From: Labia minor
Lineage: Eukaryota > Arthropoda > Insecta > Dermaptera > Spongiphoridae
Assembly (NCBI GenBank): GCA_963082975.1
Contig: OY720348.1
Span: 57,067,564-57,131,563 of the forward strand
Length of the DNA stretch: 64,000 nucleotides
Direction: 5' to 3'
In this document: in pieces, positions 11,391 to 21,183 of the stretch
Numbering within the stretch: position 1 is the first letter of the stretch
Layout of the letters: every line of letters begins with the position of its first letter
Made by a program: the position numbers and the translations under genes
Notes under the pieces: model-generated
What the model saw: the letters and a program-made list of their open reading frames with translations, nothing else
Told to the model about the DNA's origin: nothing
Databases searched by the model: none

Positions 11391-11394
11391 CTAA
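11391..11394. other. target-site duplication, left copy
   Basis: CTAA directly precedes the LTR and is repeated directly after the 3' LTR (21180-21183). A 4-bp duplication is typical of errantivirus and gypsy-type integrases. It shows that the element was inserted as a unit. Confidence 0.9.
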
Positions 11395-11522
11395 TGTAAT
11401 ATAGTGGAGATATATTGTCTTGGTGTGATGGAGATGTATTATATTTGATATATTGAAAATATATTATCTTAGTGTAATGGAAATATATTATTATGTTATC
11501 TTTAGAATGTGTGGGAATAGAT

Positions 11523-11530
11523 TATATAAA
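11523..11530 (+). promoter_or_regulatory. possible TATA box in U3
   Basis: TATATAAA stands out in the early LTR and would start RNA near 11555. That start would put several ATGs ahead of any coding exon, so the downstream TCAGT initiator is the better candidate. In AT-rich DNA this match is weak evidence. Confidence 0.25.
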
Positions 11531-11768
11531 ATACATTATGTCATAAATTAAGAATGGGTTAGAATAAGAAGAAGGAAGTTGAGTTTGCATTTCATAAGCC
11601 GTGGGAAAAATATAATCGTTGTCCACTGATCAAAGGTGATCGTTATGTAAGAAAAGAAAGATTACTAATGGGTGCAACGGAGACAGAGGATGAGAGAAGG
11701 AGATGGCGAAAGGGGAAGGAGGGGAGGCTCAAGGTGAGATGAACCAAAAGCGGCAGAGAGTGTGGCAG

Positions 11769-11773
11769 TCAGT
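11769..11773 (+). promoter_or_regulatory. possible initiator, transcription start at about 11771
   Basis: TCAGT matches the insect initiator used by TATA-less gypsy-type promoters, with the A (11771) as +1. It lies 52 nt upstream of the candidate env exon ATG at 11823. One tiny upstream frame intervenes (ATG 11779, stop 11794-11796). This would give an R region of about 470 nt. Confidence 0.4.
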
Positions 11774-11822
11774 GAATAATGTACACGAGAGAATAAGTGA
11801 TTGAATTATCGATAATTATAAG

Positions 11823-11877
11823 ATGTGTGTGTTAATTTTGATCTGTTTAGTGAATCTGTGCTCCTGGCCAGGAAAGT
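11823..11877 (+). CDS. candidate env signal-peptide exon within the LTR
   Basis: An ATG with A at -3 opens an 18-codon frame plus one base, running into the splice donor at 11878. The encoded residues are almost entirely hydrophobic (Val, Leu, Ile, Cys) for the first dozen positions, followed by polar and small residues, as in a secretory signal peptide. If spliced to the acceptor at 18392, the single leftover base is completed by the two bases before the env frame, and there is no stop between. Unspliced RNA hits TAA at 11883-11885, inside the donor itself. The main env frame has no signal peptide, so this exon would supply it. Splicing is inferred, not shown. An alternative leader is at 12253. 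Confidence 0.6.
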
Positions 11878-11883
11878 GTGAGT
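11878..11883 (+). promoter_or_regulatory. candidate splice donor for env mRNA
   Basis: GTGAGT is a near-consensus 5' splice site. Joined to the acceptor at 18392 it would remove a 6,515-nt intron holding the primer-binding site, gag and pol. A shorter alternative is splicing to the pyrimidine-rich AG at 12274-12275, which would remove only the AT-rich part of the LTR from the leader. Confidence 0.55.
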
Positions 11884-11975
11884 AAAGCAAATTTAATTAT
11901 ATCAAATGCATTTGAATAAATTCGTATGAAATTGATTAAATAAATGAATTAATTTGGATAAGATATATTAAATAA

Positions 11976-12201
11976 GTTAATGTAAAATTGATTGAATAAA
12001 TAAAGTAAATAATATGAATTATAATTAACCGAATTAATATAAAATTAATTAAATAAGCAAGTTGAATTAAATGAGTTATAATTAAAAGAATTAATGTAAA
12101 ATTGATTGAATAATTAAATTAAATAATATAAATTATAATTAACTGGATTAATATAAATTTAATAATTGTAACTAAATGAAATAAATTATATTTGAATTAA
12201 A
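11976..12201 (+). repeat. degenerate 57-bp tandem repeat in the LTR
   Basis: About four units begin at 11976, 12031, 12088 and 12145, each with a variant of GAATTAATGTAAAATTGATT followed by TTATAATTAA. They are nearly pure A+T. The same array is in the 3' LTR (plus 8,872). It lies in the presumed R region and would be part of the leader RNA or of an intron. No function is evident. An insulator or nuclear-matrix-like role is possible. Confidence 0.6.
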
Positions 12202-12216
12202 TTAAATGATGTTTTT

Positions 12217-12222
12217 AATAAA
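12217..12222 (+). terminator. polyadenylation signal AATAAA (5' LTR copy)
   Basis: AATAAA is followed by a possible cleavage zone near 12235-12245, which defines the end of R. The active copy would be 21089-21094 in the 3' LTR. AATAAA occurs elsewhere in this AT-rich LTR, so the choice rests on its position close to the LTR end. Confidence 0.5.
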
Positions 12223-12252
12223 CAATTAACACATTCGTCGTATATAGGTGGC

Positions 12253-12286
12253 ATGATCTCGTACCTTCTTTCTAGCATTGGTGCAA
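12253..12286 (+). promoter_or_regulatory. alternative U5 mini-exon and splice donor
   Basis: ATG at 12253 opens 11 codons plus one base up to a GTAAGT donor at 12287-12292. The phase also matches the env acceptor. The peptide is mildly hydrophobic but short for a signal. In unspliced RNA it is a 25-codon upstream frame that ends with TGA at 12328-12330. It is a weaker alternative to the exon at 11823. Confidence 0.3.
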
Positions 12287-12309
12287 GTAAGTACGCGGCC
12301 CATTACAAC

Positions 12310-12325
12310 TGGTGTCAGGTGTGGG
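12310..12325 (+). promoter_or_regulatory. primer-binding site, probably tRNA-Leu
   Basis: TGGTGTCAGGTGTGGG starts two bases after the LTR. TGG pairs with the tRNA CCA tail, and the following bases fit the acceptor and T stems of a leucine tRNA (many elements use the close variant TGGTGTCAGAAGTGGG). The exact isoacceptor cannot be determined without the host tRNA set. Confidence 0.75.
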
Positions 12326-12569
12326 GTTGAGGGTTTAGGGGTAGAGAGTAAAATAATTAAGCAAAATTTTGAGGATTGCATCGATAAAATTTAATTAAAA
12401 TGGGAATATTTTGTTAATAGTTTAATTCCTTTCAAACCAAAGATAAAGTAAAATTCTGAGAGCAGGGATACGGAAATTTGGGAGTATTTAAGTGAGGGAG
12501 AGTACGATAAAATTAAACCCTAGACCTGGTGTTTGCTCAACATCGAAGTTGAAAGCACCCCCACGAAAC

Positions 12570-13493
12570 ATGGAGGAACAGATCCATAATTTGGAACAAC
12601 AATTAGGACAATTGCAGGCCCAGTTATCAAATCTGACTGGGGCGGTTGGTCCCGTGGAGGTACGCGTCAATCGAGACCCTAATTGGGGAATAGTGGAGGG
12701 GATGTCGCCCTGGACGGGGACAGGACAGATTGACCTATTCCTCAATAAATTTGAGCAATTGGCCAAAATGGGTAACATACCCGAGGACCAGAGGAGGGAG
12801 GTCTTGGAATGGAAGCTGGAGGGAACGGCGTTGAGAGTCGTCAGAAATTTACCAGGAGATATCACTTGGGAAGGGGTGAAGGAACAACTGAGAGCGAGGT
12901 TCAAGCCGGAAGACACGGCCACCCAAAGGATGAGAATGGTCCTGACTATGGGTCAAACTCCGCAAGAGAGTGCAGCGGATTATCTGGATCGATTACGAGA
13001 TGCAATGGCCGGGATAGATTGGGCGGGTACAGGAATTACCCTATTGGCTCGGTTTCTAGAAGGGCTCAGAGGCGAACCGGGTAGACAAGCCCGAGTAGCA
13101 GCCCCCACGACCGAGGAAGGAGCCTTACAGATTGCACAACGGTGGGAAAAAGAGGGAAGGAATGTCCCGGAAACCCGCTTTACCTACCCATGGAGACGTA
13201 GAGACAACACACGGTTCACGAGTAACCCTGCGATTAGGGGCAGGTGTTACAATTGTAATCGGGAGGGACACATGGCTCGGATGTGCCCCATAAAGAGGGA
13301 ACCGAATAGTACCATTGGGGGTACAGAGAAAAGAGGGAACATCAAACCTCGTGAAGGATGCTATAGGTGCGGGAGTAGGGAGCACTTTATAAGGCAGTGT
13401 CCCCGACCTCCCCAGGTAAAGTGTGTGGCCGAAGAAAACATCCATACGCAAGTGGCCCCAAAAGAGTTCGGACTCCCTCCGCCCCAAGAGTGA
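12570..13493 (+). CDS. gag: Gag polyprotein with two CCHC zinc knuckles
   Basis: Gag is the structural protein that packages the RNA and forms particles. The frame opens at 12492 after a stop. The first ATG in good context (A at -3, G at +4) is at 12570 and gives 307 residues. A leucine- and glutamine-rich coiled-coil-like start is followed by a capsid-type retrotransposon Gag region (about residues 45-190, with the motif LNKFEQLAKM and a conserved WxxLKxRF-like end). Near the C-terminus are two nucleocapsid knuckles, C-X2-C-X4-H-X4-C, at about residues 226-239 and 264-277. The stop at 13491-13493 lies just downstream of the frameshift signal, inside its stem-loop. Assignment as Gag is firm; the exact start is inferred. 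Confidence 0.92.
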   Translation: MEEQIHNLEQQLGQLQAQLSNLTGAVGPVEVRVNRDPNWGIVEGMSPWTGTGQIDLFLNKFEQLAKMGNIPEDQRREVLEWKLEGTALRVVRNLPGDITWEGVKEQLRARFKPEDTATQRMRMVLTMGQTPQESAADYLDRLRDAMAGIDWAGTGITLLARFLEGLRGEPGRQARVAAPTTEEGALQIAQRWEKEGRNVPETRFTYPWRRRDNTRFTSNPAIRGRCYNCNREGHMARMCPIKREPNSTIGGTEKRGNIKPREGCYRCGSREHFIRQCPRPPQVKCVAEENIHTQVAPKEFGLPPPQE

Positions 13494-13500
13494 GTCCGAA
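13457..13500 (+). promoter_or_regulatory. -1 ribosomal frameshift signal between gag and pol
   Basis: The heptamer C CCA AAA (13457-13463) is in the gag frame and fits X XXY YYZ. After a 3-nt spacer, TTCGGACTC (13467-13475) pairs perfectly with GAGTCCGAA (13492-13500), a 9-bp stem with a 16-nt loop. The right arm can alternatively pair with TTCGGA at 13505-13510, which suggests a switching or pseudoknotted fold. Pol lies in the -1 frame, as required. Confidence 0.8.
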
Positions 13501-16500
13501 GAGATTCGGATCTCTCCTGGTAACCGCAATCAACACCAATGCGGATAAGGCTACTAGAGTGAGACTGAGTATAGGGGGACGGGAATTGGAGATGCTAGTG
13601 GACACGGGGTCGGAAGTGTCGATCTTAAAAGCTCCTATTCCAGATATCCCTGTAATGGGATATCCGCGAAATGCGTGTGGAGTTACGGGAGATCTGTTGC
13701 CCATTAGTGGTCAACAAACGCTTCCGATACTGGTGACGAAGAGAAGAATCATGCATCCATTCATTATTTGCGATGTACGGATAGCGGGAGATGGGCTCCT
13801 GGGAATGGATGTGTTGACCGCTTTGGGAGCGGTGATTGATGTGCAGAAAAGGGAGTGCCGTTGGAACGGCACAGCACGAGGTAACGGGAAGGGGAAAAGG
13901 GGCGTTGGGAATGGGAGTAATTTGGAGATTATTCCCCTGGAACGACCTAGAGGAGTAGTCAGCACTGAAACTGATGACACGGAATTTGGAGCCATTAGTG
14001 GCATTCCGCCTGTCACCGGGATAGATGAAGTGCAAGAGGAGGTCGTGAGAGCGCGAGTAATTGGCACTAGAAAAGATGACACGGAATTTGAAGCCATTAG
14101 TGGCATTCCGCCTGTCACCGGGATAGAAGGAGGGCCAGAAGAGGTCGTGAGGGCAAGGGTAATTAGCACTGGGAAAGAGGACACGGAATTTGAAGCCATT
14201 AGTGGCATTCCGCCTGTCACCGGGGTAGAAGGATTGCCAGAGGAGGTCGTGAGAGCAAAACAGAGGAAAGTAATTCCGGCGTGGTCCGAGGTAGTGGTCT
14301 GGGCTGAGGTAGATAATGCACAAGATGGCTCAGAAATGGTAGTGGAACCGGTTATATTGGCGCAACCAGTGTTACGGGTAGGGCGGACTTGTGTGAGAGT
14401 CGAGAAAGGAAGTGTACCGGTCAGAGTAATAAACTTATCTAGTAGGAAGGCAGTGATAGATCGTCGCCAACAACTTGCCAAAGCCAGCACGATACCAATA
14501 TTAGACCAAAGTTGTATTTGCCGAGTGCAGGTGGTTGAACAAGAGACCAAACATCAATGGGTATCTAAGTTCAAGGAAAAGTTGACCCACCTGCCTGAAA
14601 ATCACCAACATCAGATGTTCGAGCTATTGAACGAATATGCTTCATTGATGTATGAAGAGGGAACAACGGGATTGGGTTGTGCACTAGGTGTGAAGCATAA
14701 AATTGTCACTGAAGGATCAGCTCCCATCTTTAAACGACCCTATAGAGTGCCGCATGCGATGAGACCCGAAGTAGAAAAACAGATCGGGAAGATGCTAGAA
14801 GAAGGAGTGATTGTAGAATCAGATTCGCCATGGTCAGCACCCGTAGTACTAGTACCCAAAAAGAGTACAGACGGGAGGGTTAAATATCGATTTTGTACTG
14901 ACTACCGAGCTCTGAACAGTGTAACGAAGATTCCGGTGTATCCGATACCTAATATCACGGAGACGCTAGAATCCTTAGGAAATGCACAATATTTCACTAC
15001 CCTAGACCTGGCAAGTGGGTACCACCAAATTCAGGTAGCTCCAGAAGATAGAGAGAAAACCGCATTCACTACTTTTATGGGGCATTTTGAGTACGCAAGA
15101 ATGCCGTTCGGTTTAGCCGGGGCTCCAGCTACTTTCCAACGCTTGATGGATCGGGTGTTGGCTGGAATTAAGGGAAGCGAATGTTTCGTATATCTAGATG
15201 ATGTGGTAGTATTTGGTACAACATTTTCGGAACATCAAAGAAGGTTGCGAAACGTATTCGAATGCCTCCGACAGGCAAGACTGCAAATACAACTAGAGAA
15301 ATGTCATTTCGCGGTGGGAGAAGTTGGGTACCTGGGGCATCGGGTGGGGAAAGATGGAGTTCGACCCGATCCAAAAACAGTGGAAGCGATTAATAACTAC
15401 CCACAACCGAAAAACGTAAAAGAGATACAACAGTTTCTGGGACTCTCAGGGTGGTACAGGAGGTTTATCCCTGAGTATGCTAATATTGCGAAGCCATTGA
15501 CGGTCCTCACAAAGAAAGACCAGAAGTTCCAATGGGGTAAGGACCAGGAACAAGCGTTTCTTTCTCTCACAAAATTCCTGTGTAGTGACACCGTACTCGT
15601 TTATCCAGATTTCACACTACCGTTTATCTTGGCCACAGACGCCTCGAACGAGGCTTTAGGCGCAGTGTTATCACAGCGTCGAGACGGATATGAAAGGCCG
15701 ATTGCGTACGCCAGTCGAACGTTGAACAAGGCCGAAAGTAACTACACAGTAACGGAGAAAGAACTACTTGCTGTAGTGTGGGCGACGCAACAATTTCGGT
15801 GTTACCTATATGGGAGGAAATTCCAACTGATAACTGACCACGCGGCCTTGAAATGGATGTTAAGTCTGCATGATCCGTCACAGCGGTTGACACGATGGGC
15901 GCTACGACTGGCGGAATATGACTATACAGTAGAACATCGACCGGGGAAGTTACATCGGAATGCGGATGCTCTCAGCAGGGTGAAAGTTAGTGAGGAAGGC
16001 CCTGAGTCGAAGGTGCATACGATTCGAACTTTATTGAGAACCACAGCGACCGAAAAAGAATGGCGCGAATCACAAGATCAAGATGAGGACTGTCAGCGGT
16101 GGGCACGGAGCGGCAAAGCCCAAGCAAGATCCGATGGGTGTTTGTACGTAGTAGATGATCACCAAACCCGTCTAATGGTACCCCGAGAAAAGGTGCCCAT
16201 GATATTGGAAGAGAATCATGATAGACCCACAGCGGGGCATAGAGGGGTACAGGGAACCTTATCACGAATCCAGCGACAATATTTTTGGGAGGGAATGGAA
16301 CGGGACGTAGAGTCCTGGGTGAAACAGTGTAGTATATGTACCCAGATGAAGTCGCCAACTGGACTTCGAGCTCCCGTTCAACCACATGAGATCCCCAGAA
16401 GGCCCTTCCAAATGATAGCACTAGATGTCGTGGAATTCCCGAAGTCCACCCGAGGTAATAGATACCTTTTGACGGTACTAGATCACTACTCCCGGTACTT

Positions 16501-18367
16501 GGAAGCGATACCCATACCAAACCAAACAGCGGCCAGAGTGATCCGTGCGCTCACGGAAGAAGTAATAAGCCGGCATGGGATCCCAGAAATCATCTTAACC
16601 GATCAAGGAAGAAATTTCACCTCTAAACTATTCCTGGGACTATGTCAACGTTTAGGAATAAAAAAGGTACAAACAACAGCCTATCATCCAGAATCGAACG
16701 GACGAGTGGAAAGGGTACACAAAACAATAAAGGAGATGCTTCGACCGTGGGTGAGAACAGACGGTAAAGACTGGGATGTTTGGTTGCCATACGCGTTAAT
16801 GGCTTATCGGAGCGGACCCCATTCCAGCACTGGGTTTTCGCCGAATGTGTTAGCATTCGGCCGGGAAACAGACATTAATATCACCGTAAAAAATCAACAT
16901 CATCAAGAAGAGCCAGATAGATGGGCATATCTAAACGACTTGTGTGACCGGATAGAACATCTACAACAACGGTCGATAAATCAGTCGGAAGCCAGGTTAC
17001 AGGCGAGCAGGAAACAGGCTAATAAACATCGAAAATTCCGAAGGTTCGAGGTAGGGGATGAAGTATATGTATACAACCCCGTTCTGAAAGAGTCAGAAGC
17101 TCGGAAATTTTATAAGCCTTGGAAGGGCCCCTACACAATAGCGACAAAAAATTCCGAAGTGGTATATGGAGTGTGGTGGAGCCCCACTAAGATTGTCAAC
17201 ATACATGTGAATCGTTTAAAACCAGCCAATATAGAACGCCGCGGAGTGAACCGTGTATATGAACACACGGGAGATATGTTGATGGCACCCAAAAATTACG
17301 CCCTAGCTCATTGCGTATCGGCCGACTTACGCATGTCCCAAGGTGTTGCAAAAACTATACGAGACACCTATCCGAGGCACCCTTGCGAAAAGATCCCAGA
17401 ACCAACCATCGGAGAGATCCTAGTACAATACCACCCAGATAGAGTAATACTTCACTGTGTCACGAAAACAAAAGCGAGTGACAAGCCGCGCCCTGAAAAC
17501 GTGAAAATGACAATCAAGAACCTTCTACTGAAGGCGACCGAGGTAGGAATCCCAGCATTGGCGGTTCCGCGCTTAGGATGCGGAATGGACGGCCTCAAAT
17601 GGGTACAAGTCAAGAAGTGGCTAAAAGAGCTAACCCCCGACTACCCGGTGAGAGTACACGTATACACACCAGCGGCCATTGGAACCCCAACGCCAACTGA
17701 TGATGAAGAGGAGAAAAACCGAATTTGGGAGAGCGATTCGGATGACGATGTGTGGTCAGGGGAAGAGGACATTTCATTGAGTCCGTGGCGAGAACAGAAT
17801 GACTCCCAGCCCAATTGGAATGGAGTAGGACAACTAGATTATTCCGCAAGACCCAGCGAGATAGAGGAGATCGAGCCAGAAGGGGAGAAAGAAACACCCC
17901 CTGTAATTAATTTAGAAAGCCAAGATGAAATAGACATCGCAGAGGCACTAAGGGAAGAGGAATCCCTCAGAATTGACAGAAGAGATCCAGAGTCTGGGCG
18001 ACAGGAGACAGAGACCGGTGAGCACGTTACTCAAGGGGAAACAGGACAAACTTCGCAGGATGAAGAAAGTCAAAGGGAGGAGGGGTGGGAGGATATAGAT
18101 TCCCCGGCTAGCCCGGAGAAATCACCCAATGCTCGGGACCAGAATGCACACCCTCCTCACACACCACCCAATAGAGATGTCCCGGTTAGGGGTAGCGTGG
18201 AGGCCCAACCCAGTACCAGTAGCCCGGGGACAAGACCTCCCACAACAGCCGGGGCGACAAAGAACCCTAATACGAGTAAACCACCCGTTGGAGTCCCACC
18301 AAAAAAGAGAGGGGTAGGGCGTCCTAAAAAGAGAACCATTTGGAATTTCCATAAAAAAAAGGAGTAA
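13463..18367 (+). CDS. pol: Pol: protease, RT, RNase H, integrase, macro domain, AT-hook-like tail
   Basis: Residues are numbered from the codon at 13397; translation probably enters by -1 frameshift at 13463. The protease has DTG at 69-71 and GLLGMD at 133-138. A linker with three 34-residue repeats follows (193-291). The reverse transcriptase (about 433-650) has LDLASGYHQ with D537 and YLDD at 599-602. RNase H has D748, E789 and D814. The integrase has an H-H-C-C zinc site (H941, H948, C978, C981), D1010, D1069 and E1105 (35 residues between the last two), and a GPY/F-like module. A TARG1-type macro domain spans about 1287-1425. The tail is acidic, then Pro/Ser/Thr-rich, ending in a basic GVGRPKKR motif. 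All catalytic residues are present and there is no internal stop. It makes and integrates the DNA copy. The tail and the macro domain are extra to the usual gypsy Pol. Confidence 0.95.
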   Translation, partial: RVRTPSAPRVSPKRFGSLLVTAINTNADKATRVRLSIGGRELEMLVDTGSEVSILKAPIPDIPVMGYPRNACGVTGDLLPISGQQTLPILVTKRRIMHPFIICDVRIAGDGLLGMDVLTALGAVIDVQKRECRWNGTARGNGKGKRGVGNGSNLEIIPLERPRGVVSTETDDTEFGAISGIPPVTGIDEVQEEVVRARVIGTRKDDTEFEAISGIPPVTGIEGGPEEVVRARVISTGKEDTEFEAISGIPPVTGVEGLPEEVVRAKQRKVIPAWSEVVVWAEVDNAQDGSEMVVEPVILAQPVLRVGRTCVRVEKGSVPVRVINLSSRKAVIDRRQQLAKASTIPILDQSCICRVQVVEQETKHQWVSKFKEKLTHLPENHQHQMFELLNEYASLMYEEGTTGLGCALGVKHKIVTEGSAPIFKRPYRVPHAMRPEVEKQIGKMLEEGVIVESDSPWSAPVVLVPKKSTDGRVKYRFCTDYRALNSVTKIPVYPIPNITETLESLGNAQYFTTLDLASGYHQIQVAPEDREKTAFTTFMGHFEYARMPFGLAGAPATFQRLMDRVLAGIKGSECFVYLDDVVVFGTTFSEHQRRLRNVFECLRQARLQIQLEKCHFAVGEVGYLGHRVGKDGVRPDPKTVEAINNYPQPKNVKEIQQFLGLSGWYRRFIPEYANIAKPLTVLTKKDQKFQWGKDQEQAFLSLTKFLCSDTVLVYPDFTLPFILATDASNEALGAVLSQRRDGYERPIAYASRTLNKAESNYTVTEKELLAVVWATQQFRCYLYGRKFQLITDHAALKWMLSLHDPSQRLTRWALRLAEYDYTVEHRPGKLHRNADALSRVKVSEEGPESKVHTIRTLLRTTATEKEWRESQDQDEDCQRWARSGKAQARSDGCLYVVDDHQTRLMVPREKVPMILEENHDRPTAGHRGVQGTLSRIQRQYFWEGMERDVESWVKQCSICTQMKSPTGLRAPVQPHEIPRRPFQMIALDVVEFPKSTRGNRYLLTVLDHYSRYLEAIPIPNQTAARVIRALTEEVISRHGIPEIILTDQGRNFTSKLFLGLCQRLGIKKVQTTAYHPESNGRVERVHKTIKEMLRPWVRTDGKDWDVWLPYALMAYRSGPHSSTGFSPNVLAFGRETDINITVKNQHHQEEPDRWAYLNDLCDRIEHLQQRSINQSEARLQASRKQANKHRKFRRFEVGDEVYVYNPVLKESEARKFYKPWKGPYTIATKNSEVVYGVWWSPTKIVNIHVNRLKPANIERRGVNRVYEHTGDMLMAPKNYALAHCVSADLRMSQGVAKTIRDTYPRHPCEKIPEPTIGEILVQYHPDRVILHCVTKTKASDKPRPENVKMTIKNLLLKATEVGIPALAVPRLGCGMDGLKWVQVKKWLKELTPDYPVRVHVYTPAAIGTPTPTDDEEEKNRIWESDSDDDVWSGEEDISLSPWREQNDSQPNWNGVGQLDYSARPSEIEEIEPEGEKETPPVINLESQDEIDIAEALREEESLRIDRRDPESGRQETETGEHVTQGETGQTSQDEESQREEGWEDIDSPASPEKSPNARDQNAHPPHTPPNRDVPVRGSVEAQPSTSSPGTRPPTTAGATKNPNTSKPPVGVPPKKRGVGRPKKRTIWNFHKKKE
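13973..14269 (+). repeat. 34-codon tandem repeat between protease and RT
   Basis: Three in-frame copies start at 13973, 14075 and 14177 (102 bp apart). Each encodes DTEF-AISGIPPVTG followed by EEVVRA; the third copy is slightly shorter. The second and third copies are more alike than the first. The repeat lies in the linker after the protease, where length can vary without harming catalysis. It could be a binding or cleavage-site repeat. Function is unknown. Confidence 0.9.
17255..17671 (+). other. TARG1/OARD1-like macro domain inside Pol
   Basis: The domain covers about residues 1287-1425 of the pol frame and follows the integrase C-terminal module. It has the TARG1-type succession GD, LAHCVSADLRMSQGVA, a VTKTKAS block, PRLGCGMDGLKW and a C-terminal VHVYTP strand. 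K1357 and D1398 match the catalytic Lys84 and Asp125 of human TARG1 and are separated by the same 41 residues. TARG1 removes ADP-ribose from acidic residues, and related macro domains remove it from DNA. The sequence therefore predicts an active hydrolase, not only a binder. Its closest source, host or viral, cannot be told from one sequence. Confidence 0.85.
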
Positions 18368-18368
18368 T

Positions 18369-18392
18369 GTTTCTTTGTTTCTTCTCTCACAG
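18369..18392 (+). promoter_or_regulatory. splice acceptor for env mRNA
   Basis: A long pyrimidine tract directly after the pol stop ends in CACAG (AG at 18391-18392). It lies 17 nt before the first env ATG. The frame is open from the acceptor into env, so an upstream exon ending in phase 1 can be fused to it. Confidence 0.75.
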
Positions 18393-20206
18393 GCCAAACT
18401 AACGATGCGATGGGGAAGCAGGCGAGGGAGAGGGAGGAGATAATGCCACTGGGAGTCTATTTTGAACCAGTCGACGATGTGATAATTACGGGAGATGAGT
18501 GGCGGATTGTAACGGAAGTCGACGTGAAAGAGATTCAAGGGAAGGTATCGGTCATCAGGGATTCTCTGGAGAAATTACAGGATGACCGATACGCTCTCTT
18601 AGAAGGAGAACCTTTGAAGACAATAGATTTTAAGGAGGATATGTCCTATATTAAGACCAGTTTCGAGATGACGGAGGGGATTATTTCACATTTGAGTGAA
18701 ATGCTACCCCCGGCGCGAAGTCGACGTGGTCTGGTGGACGCGGGGGGGCACGTTTTAAAATTCATTTTCGGAACTTTAGATAATGAAGATCTGGTGGAAT
18801 TGAATACCAGATTACAAAATTTAAATGAAGTTAATGAACAAATGAGTCATTACTTCGATGATCAAATCACAGCATTAGACCAACTCGACCATAAAACTAA
18901 TCAAAATTTCGACTTGATTAAACAACATGCTAGAACATTATTGGAATTAGCCACTTTGATAGACCGAAATTTTAATTGGACACTTGGACGGCAAAACGCA
19001 GCCGAAAAATTTTTTCAAGAAGCGTTAGAATTAATGACTAAGACACGACGCCTGGGGCAAGCAGTGACGTCAGTTCGAAACTGGTTAGAGGATGTCCTCG
19101 GGATTGTTCAATCGGCGGCAGCGGGACGCCTCGATGCGCGATTGATCAACCCAAAAATGTTATTAGAATTAATGATAGATATAAATAAGAAACTCCCCGA
19201 AGGACAGGAATGGCTGACCCCGCTAGAATTACGATTTGTTTATAAGTACTATGACACATCATTAGTGAAAGTGTATAGTGTCAGGAACGCTATCCGTTTC
19301 GTGATCTCACTTCCGTTGAAGACAGTATCCCAGTCAGGAACAATATATTTCGTTCATGTTGTGCCGACAGCTCGGGGGGGAGTGAGGACCAAGCTAGTGA
19401 AAATTTCCCCGTGGATCCTCGTAACGCATGACCACCAAAAATATACCACGCTAGAACATAGATATGTGGACAGCTGCCGGGGACGGGAGCCGATGGTGTG
19501 TCAACAGCCTATTCCACTCGTAGCCCGATCCCAACTCAGTTGTGTCAGCGCCCTCTTCTTCAAACACGCGGAGCATCTAGACAGTTACTGCTCATGGGAA
19601 GTGTTATTAGGGGCGATTACTGATTTTTGGGAACCATCATATTCTGGTTCCCATTGGTATTATAGTATATCACGACCTCAAGTGGCCCGGCAAAGTTGCC
19701 GTACCAATAGCAAACCTAGATTCGATGATATCCAACTACATCAACAAGGCATCGTTACCGTTCCGGAGGGATGTCAGCTATATACAAATCAACATCTGTT
19801 GATGTCTAGGAGCGCGGGTCAATCGAGAGTCACGATAACAACTCCAGTGATATTTACCGGCCATAAAGAAGAACCCCTAATAACAGAGACATCACGTAAG
19901 GAGAACACAATAATGGCGGAGGGACTGAAAAGCTTGGAGTCGATAAGAGCTGAGTTGGGAAGGACCTCGATGAGTGTTCCATTATCCAGGTTGCGGGAGG
20001 AGGCGAGGTTGATACAGAGCAAAAGGAAACAGCATCTTATCGCTGGCGGGACCGGTGGTGGAGCAGTTTTAGTGAGTCTGTGTGGACTGGTGGGGTATCT
20101 TTGGTGGAAGAAGTGTACACGGAGGAAGAGGAAGGCCGGGAAACTGCAGAATCAACTGGGAAGTGATGTGGACATAGACAAAACAGAGGAGGGGTCGAAC
20201 TGTTGA
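18393..20206 (+). CDS. env: Env-like fusion glycoprotein (baculovirus F type)
   Basis: The first in-frame ATG is at 18410 (598 residues), with open frame back to the acceptor. Residues 103-106 are RSRR, a furin site. They are followed by a Gly/Ala-rich fusion peptide and the GGHVLKFIFGTL-type start characteristic of baculovirus F and errantivirus Env. Residues about 125-185 look like a heptad-repeat coiled coil. There is one N-glycosylation sequon (N189). Cysteines cluster at 356-455. A Gly-rich transmembrane helix (about 545-566) is followed by a basic tail. Such proteins mediate membrane fusion for particle entry. The N-terminus (MGKQAREREE) is charged, so this frame alone has no signal peptide; one may come from the LTR exon at 11823. 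It shares its frame with pol, separated by a single stop codon. No disabling break is seen. Confidence 0.9.
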
Positions 20207-20210
20207 AAAG

Positions 20211-20246
20211 GATTGTTTCGGGAAAAAACTTTACCCCGAAACAATC
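20211..20246 (+). promoter_or_regulatory. perfect 12-bp hairpin in the 3' untranslated region
   Basis: GATTGTTTCGGG (20211-20222) pairs perfectly with CCCGAAACAATC (20235-20246) around a 12-nt loop. One mismatch and several A-T pairs extend it outward. It lies 4 nt after the env stop and 6 nt before the polypurine tract. It could stabilise the RNA, aid export or packaging, or mark the polypurine primer. Known errantivirus 3' ends do not by themselves explain it. Confidence 0.8.
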
Positions 20247-20252
20247 TTTTTT

Positions 20253-20266
20253 AAAGGGTGGGGGAG
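20253..20266 (+). promoter_or_regulatory. polypurine tract
   Basis: AAAGGGTGGGGGAG lies immediately before the 3' LTR and is interrupted by one T. It is the expected primer for plus-strand DNA synthesis. Confidence 0.85.
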
Positions 20267-21179
20267 TGTAATATAGTGGAGATATATTGTCTTGGTGTGA
20301 TGGAGATGTATTATATTTGATATATTGAAAATATATTATCTTAGTGTAATGGAAATATATTATTATGTTATCTTTAGAATGTGTGGGAATAGATTATATA
20401 AAATACATTATGTCATAAATTAAGAATGGGTTAGAATAAGAAGAAGGAAGTTGAGTTTGCATTTCATAAGCCGTGGGAAAAATATAATCGTTGTCCACTG
20501 ATCAAAGGTGATCGTTATGTAAGAAAAGAAAGATTACTAATGGGTGCAACGGAGACAGAGGATGAGAGAAGGAGATGGCGAAAGGGGAAGGAGGGGAGGC
20601 TCAAGGTGAGATGAACCAAAAGCGGCAGAGAGTGTGGCAGTCAGTGAATAATGTACACGAGAGAATAAGTGATTGAATTATCGATAATTATAAGATGTGT
20701 GTGTTAATTTTGATCTGTTTAGTGAATCTGTGCTCCTGGCCAGGAAAGTGTGAGTAAAGCAAATTTAATTATATCAAATGCATTTGAATAAATTCGTATG
20801 AAATTGATTAAATAAATGAATTAATTTGGATAAGATATATTAAATAAGTTAATGTAAAATTGATTGAATAAATAAAGTAAATAATATGAATTATAATTAA
20901 CCGAATTAATATAAAATTAATTAAATAAGCAAGTTGAATTAAATGAGTTATAATTAAAAGAATTAATGTAAAATTGATTGAATAATTAAATTAAATAATA
21001 TAAATTATAATTAACTGGATTAATATAAATTTAATAATTGTAACTAAATGAAATAAATTATATTTGAATTAAATTAAATGATGTTTTTAATAAACAATTA
21101 ACACATTCGTCGTATATAGGTGGCATGATCTCGTACCTTCTTTCTAGCATTGGTGCAAGTAAGTACGCGGCCCATTACA
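20267..21179 (+). repeat. 3' LTR, 913 bp
   Basis: It has the same length and, by eye, the same sequence as the 5' LTR. It starts directly after the polypurine tract and is followed by the CTAA duplication. It provides the polyadenylation signal (AATAAA at 21089-21094). Confidence 0.95.
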
Positions 21180-21183
21180 CTAA
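21180..21183. other. target-site duplication, right copy
   Basis: CTAA after the 3' LTR, matching 11391-11394. Confidence 0.9.

Follow-up and report, generated by a model that had tools for sequence, protein, structure and literature searches.

The locus described here raises the question of why the Pol protein of a retrovirus-like element should carry, behind its integrase, a domain that resembles a cellular enzyme. It lies in a stretch of 64,000 nt of the genome of the earwig Labia minor (assembly GCA_963082975.1, OY720348.1, positions 57,067,564 to 57,131,563 of the forward strand; hereafter the window), which contains a complete long terminal repeat (LTR) element of 9785 bp at positions 11395-21179. 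The element is an env-bearing element of the Ty3/gypsy type in which a macrodomain is joined to the C-terminus of the integrase inside Pol. It is rare for an LTR retrotransposon to fix an additional domain, and such domains can reveal interactions between element and host (PMC9289625; papers are cited by PubMed Central number).

The domain behind the integrase

The macrodomain occupies positions 17255-17671 (plus strand) of a pol frame (13397-18367, plus strand; 1656 aa counted from the first GTG) that is free of internal stops, and both the domain and the intact frame had been proposed by a sequence-only reading of the window. The domain matched the Pfam family Macro (PF01661), scoring 29.4 bits (cut-off 22; E 8.2e-07). 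In a phmmer search against PDB sequences, the top five matches were human TARG1 (C6orf130; ~74 bits, E ~1e-19), followed by 5m31, the DarG of T. aquaticus (E 2.5e-06); the DarG profile was also the best match in the prokaryotic library NCBIfam (40.4 bits, far under the cut-off of 250). Structure prediction gave a macro fold, for which TARG1 is the nearest structure and DarG the next. The assignment to the TARG1 class, also made in the sequence-only reading, is well supported by the PDB sequence matches and the predicted structure. The alignment to TARG1 is without gaps from query residue 5 to 138, and because of this and of the numbering of the structure chain (10-152), K1357 (codon 17465-17467) and D1398 (codon 17588-17590) correspond to K84 and D125 of TARG1; the equal spacing of the two pairs, as claimed before, is confirmed at the codon positions.

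The domain is 26-37% identical to the 120 relatives that were listed out of 630, many of which are unnamed environmental proteins. A chance match or a misframed open reading frame is ruled out by the Pfam and phmmer matches, the predicted structure and the genomic copies downstream of integrase genes; the resemblance is far beyond chance, because the domain has 125 matches in the same genome, some of them only ~26-40% identical. The net charge of the element domains (+6 to +10) is not unusual against the median of +5 in 51 relatives, and was dropped as a hint of a DNA substrate.

Copies of the domain in the genome

The 125 matches in the L. minor genome were obtained by tblastn with the domain; 32 of them, including the window's own, are identical over 139 aa. 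The window's element was placed in a family A, to whose domain those of the other families are 39% (B), ~26% (C), 32% (D) and 40% (E, degraded) identical; the families are mutually ~21-42% identical. The genome was also searched with the integrase core (150 of 1458 candidates scored; families grouped by identity to the window). Of these 150 integrase rows, the 111 with the highest scores (A, 60; B, 31; C, 18; D, 1; F, 1) are followed within 5 kb by a macro match, mostly at a distance of 0.86-0.96 kb, some of these being partial. No macro match was found within 5 kb downstream of the other 39 rows, whose identity to the window's integrase is 67% over 69 aa for one partial row, 53% for another, and 44-52% for the rest.

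The window's element is bounded by two identical LTRs of 913 bp (TG...CA; 11395-12307 and 20267-21179, 0 mismatches), and these are flanked by a target-site duplication, CTAA (11391-11394 and 21180-21183). Ten other family A copies had their ends examined: seven show matching 4-bp duplications (TAAG, ATCT, AATT, CAGA, TTTA, ATTG and ATTG), and in three the duplication was not resolved at the expected place. The domain is thus the mark of a group of related element families that were active recently and have many recent insertions, the window's element being young; it was retained as the lineage split into these families.

The earwig's own OARD1, represented by two tblastn matches at C2:49803561-49804023 that were read as exons, shares 29% of its residues with the window's domain, and up to 58% with other relatives (56% with a mosquito OARD1). 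An isolated TARG1-like exon fragment was observed amid local repeats at L024:2371-2661 (minus strand); a second half was not found within the 5-kb locus, and the fragment may be a broken paralogue or another captured copy.

Retention of the catalytic pair

Within the 120 relatives, 28 alignment columns are at least 98% fixed, and five of these are kept in all families A-E (G53, K71, D112, W116 and Y137, thus including the predicted catalytic pair, in domain numbering); the five were unchanged when three real family C copies were used. The probability that two columns drawn randomly from the 28 would both be among the kept five is 0.026. Copies with a recognised domain were picked, not drawn at random (n = 45; a short family F fragment, L047, was left out): both sites are covered in 42, every one of which has K and D; the remaining three are cut short, one still showing the K. 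By these alignments, the putative catalytic pair has been retained, in contrast to most of the other columns that are near-fixed among the relatives.

Distinct codon changes were counted among copies; the counts are small and include post-insertion changes. The ratio of nonsynonymous to synonymous change (pN/pS) in the family A macrodomain was 0.17 (23 synonymous, 13 nonsynonymous; 15 copies) and in the 300 codons before it 0.18 (53 synonymous, 33 nonsynonymous); for family B, the values were 0.27 for the macrodomain (15 synonymous, 14 nonsynonymous; 10 copies) and 0.36 for the stretch before it (7 synonymous, 9 nonsynonymous; 8 copies).

Several observations weigh against the working hydrolase proposed below. 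Many of the 42 copies are near-identical, and hence not independent. The family C macrodomain shows 6 synonymous and 14 nonsynonymous changes (pN/pS 0.64; 11 copies), unlike the 300 codons before it (14 synonymous, 3 nonsynonymous; 10 copies, the shifted copy L040 being left out), and in the same family the GCG loop (PRxGCG) before the Asp is replaced, with K and D kept (e.g. L017:2398-2805). Residues that are fixed in the 120 relatives are altered, namely His19 in B, C and D, Cys20 in B, and Pro78 in B, C and D. Finally, divergence has been faster in the domain than in the preceding 480 residues (identity A-B 39% vs 49%; A-C 26% vs 44%). The macrodomain looks constrained in family A; in family C the constraint looks weak, though the numbers are small, and a changed substrate or a loss of activity under way is possible there.

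The faster divergence and the weak constraint in family C would also be expected of a passenger, i.e. of a captured cellular domain with little or no function. We regard this as very improbable, since the frame is open and K and D are kept across families that differ at well over half of their positions, and since the constraint on the family A domain is like that on the neighbouring part of the integrase.

The C-terminal tail of Pol

Behind the macrodomain, Pol ends in an acidic tail of 231 residues (17672-18364, plus strand; 51 D+E vs 28 K+R) with the motif KRGVGRPKKRTIWNF near the C-terminus (18305-18349, plus strand; RGRP, then WNF), which we take to resemble an AT-hook. This motif or a close form of it was present in tails of at least 200 residues in family A (12/13), C (10/11) and D (1/1), and in none of family B (0/9); no RGRP/RGRS-type motif was found in any of the nine full family B tails. 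With this motif, a targeting role is conceivable.

The macrodomain might be a reader rather than an eraser: together with the AT-hook-like motif of the tail, it might choose insertion sites by tethering the integrase to chromatin that is ADP-ribosylated or AT-rich, comparable to chromodomains, which are readers. The position near the pol C-terminus is that of the chromodomain in chromoviruses (PMC12440569), the basic motif follows the macrodomain in A, C and D, and the ALC1-like class of macrodomains includes both readers and erasers (PMC7050489). A pure reader needs neither of the catalytic residues, yet K and D are kept as other columns drift; the tail motif is absent from family B, and no common target sequence was seen by eye in the flanks of eight copies, the window included. 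We judge a reader to be unlikely, if worth bearing in mind.

Proposed function

On balance, we lean towards a working ADP-ribosylhydrolase that is packaged with the integrase and blunts a host response of the poly(ADP-ribose) polymerase (PARP) type at integration. By the chemistry of TARG1, the Lys would attack the distal ribose and the Asp would assist. Because the domain is made within Pol, it would enter the particle and the pre-integration complex alongside the integrase. There it would strip mono-ADP-ribose, or release chains, its targets at the integration site being proteins, DNA ends or DNA bases, and this erasure would blunt a PARP-type response that would otherwise silence the element or block its DNA. 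What we infer is that the domain is enzymatically active, that it is packaged with Pol, and that it acts on the host's ADP-ribosylation at about the time of nuclear entry and integration.

Such substrates have been described for TARG1, which reverses thymidine-linked ADP-ribosylation of DNA (PMC8501950) and is among the enzymes that take ADP-ribose off nucleic-acid ends (PMC7050489). Loss of PARP-1 in Drosophila mainly raises the expression of mobile elements, most of which belong to the gypsy superfamily, although for a number of them the change does not reach significance (PMC7712786); that study allows an indirect cause of the derepression, which is to be added to the points against the proposed function.

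An active hydrolase might instead serve in the cytoplasm or the particle, where it could shield Gag, Pol or the element RNA from ADP-ribosylation during assembly or reverse transcription, by analogy with the macrodomains of plus-strand RNA viruses. To our knowledge, the latter (alphavirus nsP3, rubella) are of another class and lack the Lys/Asp dyad. Pol is packaged in retroelement particles, and the dyad is kept in the element, as such a role would also have it. The host response in question is a target of viral macrodomains (PMC7050489). That the domain is fused immediately after the integrase speaks for the nucleus, however, and we consider a role in the cytoplasm or the particle rather improbable.

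For the integrase-linked hydrolase, the boldest form of the proposal is that an insect retrovirus-like lineage carries an integrase-borne ADP-ribose eraser that undoes PARP signalling at the integration site itself; we put this forward as a tentative suggestion that may well prove wrong. If true, it would imply that insects defend themselves against retroelements by ADP-ribosylating chromatin or the incoming DNA. An ADP-ribose hydrolase tied to the integrase would link PARP signalling with retroelement control in insects, and would offer a handle on two questions, i.e. the role of DNA or protein ADP-ribosylation at integration sites and its use in invertebrate defence; the domain is small, similar to a well-studied enzyme, and readily assayed.

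Origin of the domain

The domain trees have no outgroup and contain long branches, and are to be read as unrooted with respect to animal OARD1. Families A, B, D and E form one clade (support 100/98), which in another of these unrooted trees adjoins mostly insect and unnamed rows (85/96). Family C stands apart on a long branch, and shares the letters of the relatives at L45, Q48, L58 and Y67, where A, B, D and E differ. Unconstrained trees require the element label to change twice, and none of 200 bootstrap trees (0%) does with one change; the approximately unbiased test nevertheless did not reject a tree in which families A-E form a single clade (p-AU 0.44; 0.55 in another row set). In the integrase tree (13 rows, 108 columns), four macro-less representatives of ~350 bp each are on a branch of their own (98/100); the macro label again needs two changes in the unconstrained tree, a single change being enough in 4% of 200 bootstrap trees, and grouping all macro-bearing rows into one clade was not rejected (p-AU 0.32). 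A single gain in one lineage fits these data; there may also have been a gain plus a loss in the macro-less branch, or two gains, and family C may have captured its domain separately.

Organization of the element

Between the LTRs, protease, reverse transcriptase, RNase H and integrase are encoded in the order known for Ty3/gypsy (Metaviridae) LTR elements, all on the plus strand. The gag frame (12492-13493; coordinates of the frame, not of a confirmed start) encodes a Pfam Retrotrans_gag domain and two zinc-knuckle stretches; the pol frame is -1 relative to gag. Pfam domains in Pol are an aspartic protease (RVP, 13553-13837; LVDTG at 13595), a reverse transcriptase (RVT_1, 14852-15346; YLDD at 15191), an RNase H (15533-15919), an integrase H2C2 zinc-binding domain (16178-16354; also found by the HHCC pattern) and the integrase catalytic core (rve, 16397-16690; D-D-35-E pattern at 16424-16711); the GPY of the integrase C-terminal GPY/F module was found by pattern match at 17126-17134. 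The env frame (18410-20206; 598 aa) matches Baculo_F (PF12259, E 2.2e-19) in its first half.

Both LTRs contain 57-bp tandem repeats (11967-12201 and 20839-21073). A 34-residue repeat is present in pol in three in-frame copies between protease and reverse transcriptase (13953-14258); its copy number is probably variable among insertions, because family A pol frames (1594, 1628 and 1662 aa) differ in steps of 34.

The window's chromosome (C10) is the X chromosome (PMC11829193), and TTCGG repeats at the ends of C4, C6 and C10 agree with that report. The genome note (PMC11937785) gives an assembly size of 604.5 Mb; the terms "repeat" and "transpos-" are absent from its main text as available. A mitochondrial-looking contig of 11,554 bp (C71, L083) was also observed; because of this ~11.5-kb contig and the two mitochondrial scaffolds reported in PMC11937785, the earwig mitochondrial genome may be split.

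Comparison with known systems

Two pieces of Pol with the domain at their centre were used as protein queries (length ranges 470-1498 and 581-1848 aa), and no fused Pol-macrodomain protein was found: of the 291 and 116 candidates, none passed the E-value limit. Such searches reach a relative only if it shares short words with the query, and annotations frequently omit transposon proteins, so that the absence is weakly supported. No earlier description of a retroelement-macrodomain fusion was found in the open-licence literature of PubMed Central, judged by titles and the start of abstracts; "macro" is absent from the available text of PMC12440569, and "macro domain" from that of PMC12992720. 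Among IMG/VR viral contigs, 210 candidate stretches encode TARG1-like relatives; 80 of the 210, on contigs of up to 394 kb, were aligned to the window's domain, and K and D are both present in all but one of them (79 of 80), although the Asp was required by one of the two search patterns.

Of the cellular relatives, TARG1/OARD1, an animal ALC1-like macrodomain hydrolase, shares the predicted fold, the catalytic spacing and the K84/D125 dyad, but is a protein without retroelement parts, whereas the element's domain is fused behind an integrase and, in some families, has changed several residues that are near-fixed among the relatives. A kinship with the DarG antitoxin macrodomain, suggested by the sequence-only reading, stands at the level of the ALC1-like class, in the catalytic Lys and in the second rank of DarG by structure; DarG acts in a bacterial toxin-antitoxin context and has no Lys/Asp dyad (PMC9411070), and membership of the element's domain in DarG is ruled out by the kept D1398.

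Of the retroelements, errantiviruses are similar in their gag-pol-env order, their F-type env related to that of baculoviruses and their insect hosts (PMC12992720), but lack GPF/Y (PMC12440569); the element was not assigned to the genus Errantivirus because of its GPY motif, though its env relates to baculovirus F. Closest in spirit are the chromoviruses and the orchid AlkB elements. Chromoviruses are Ty3/gypsy elements with an extra domain behind the integrase, at the same end of Pol (PMC12440569); in its stead, the element carries a domain of an enzyme class with the catalytic residues kept, and a Pfam scan of 16997-18364 (E up to 1) found no chromodomain at the pol C-terminus, only Macro and, below cut-off, Integrase_p58_C. 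The orchid Ty3/gypsy elements have likewise taken in a modification eraser, an AlkB m6A demethylase for which activity in vitro was shown (PMC9289625); there, however, the eraser is encoded in an additional open reading frame, in a plant host, and is directed at RNA methylation rather than at ADP-ribosylation, the predicted target here.
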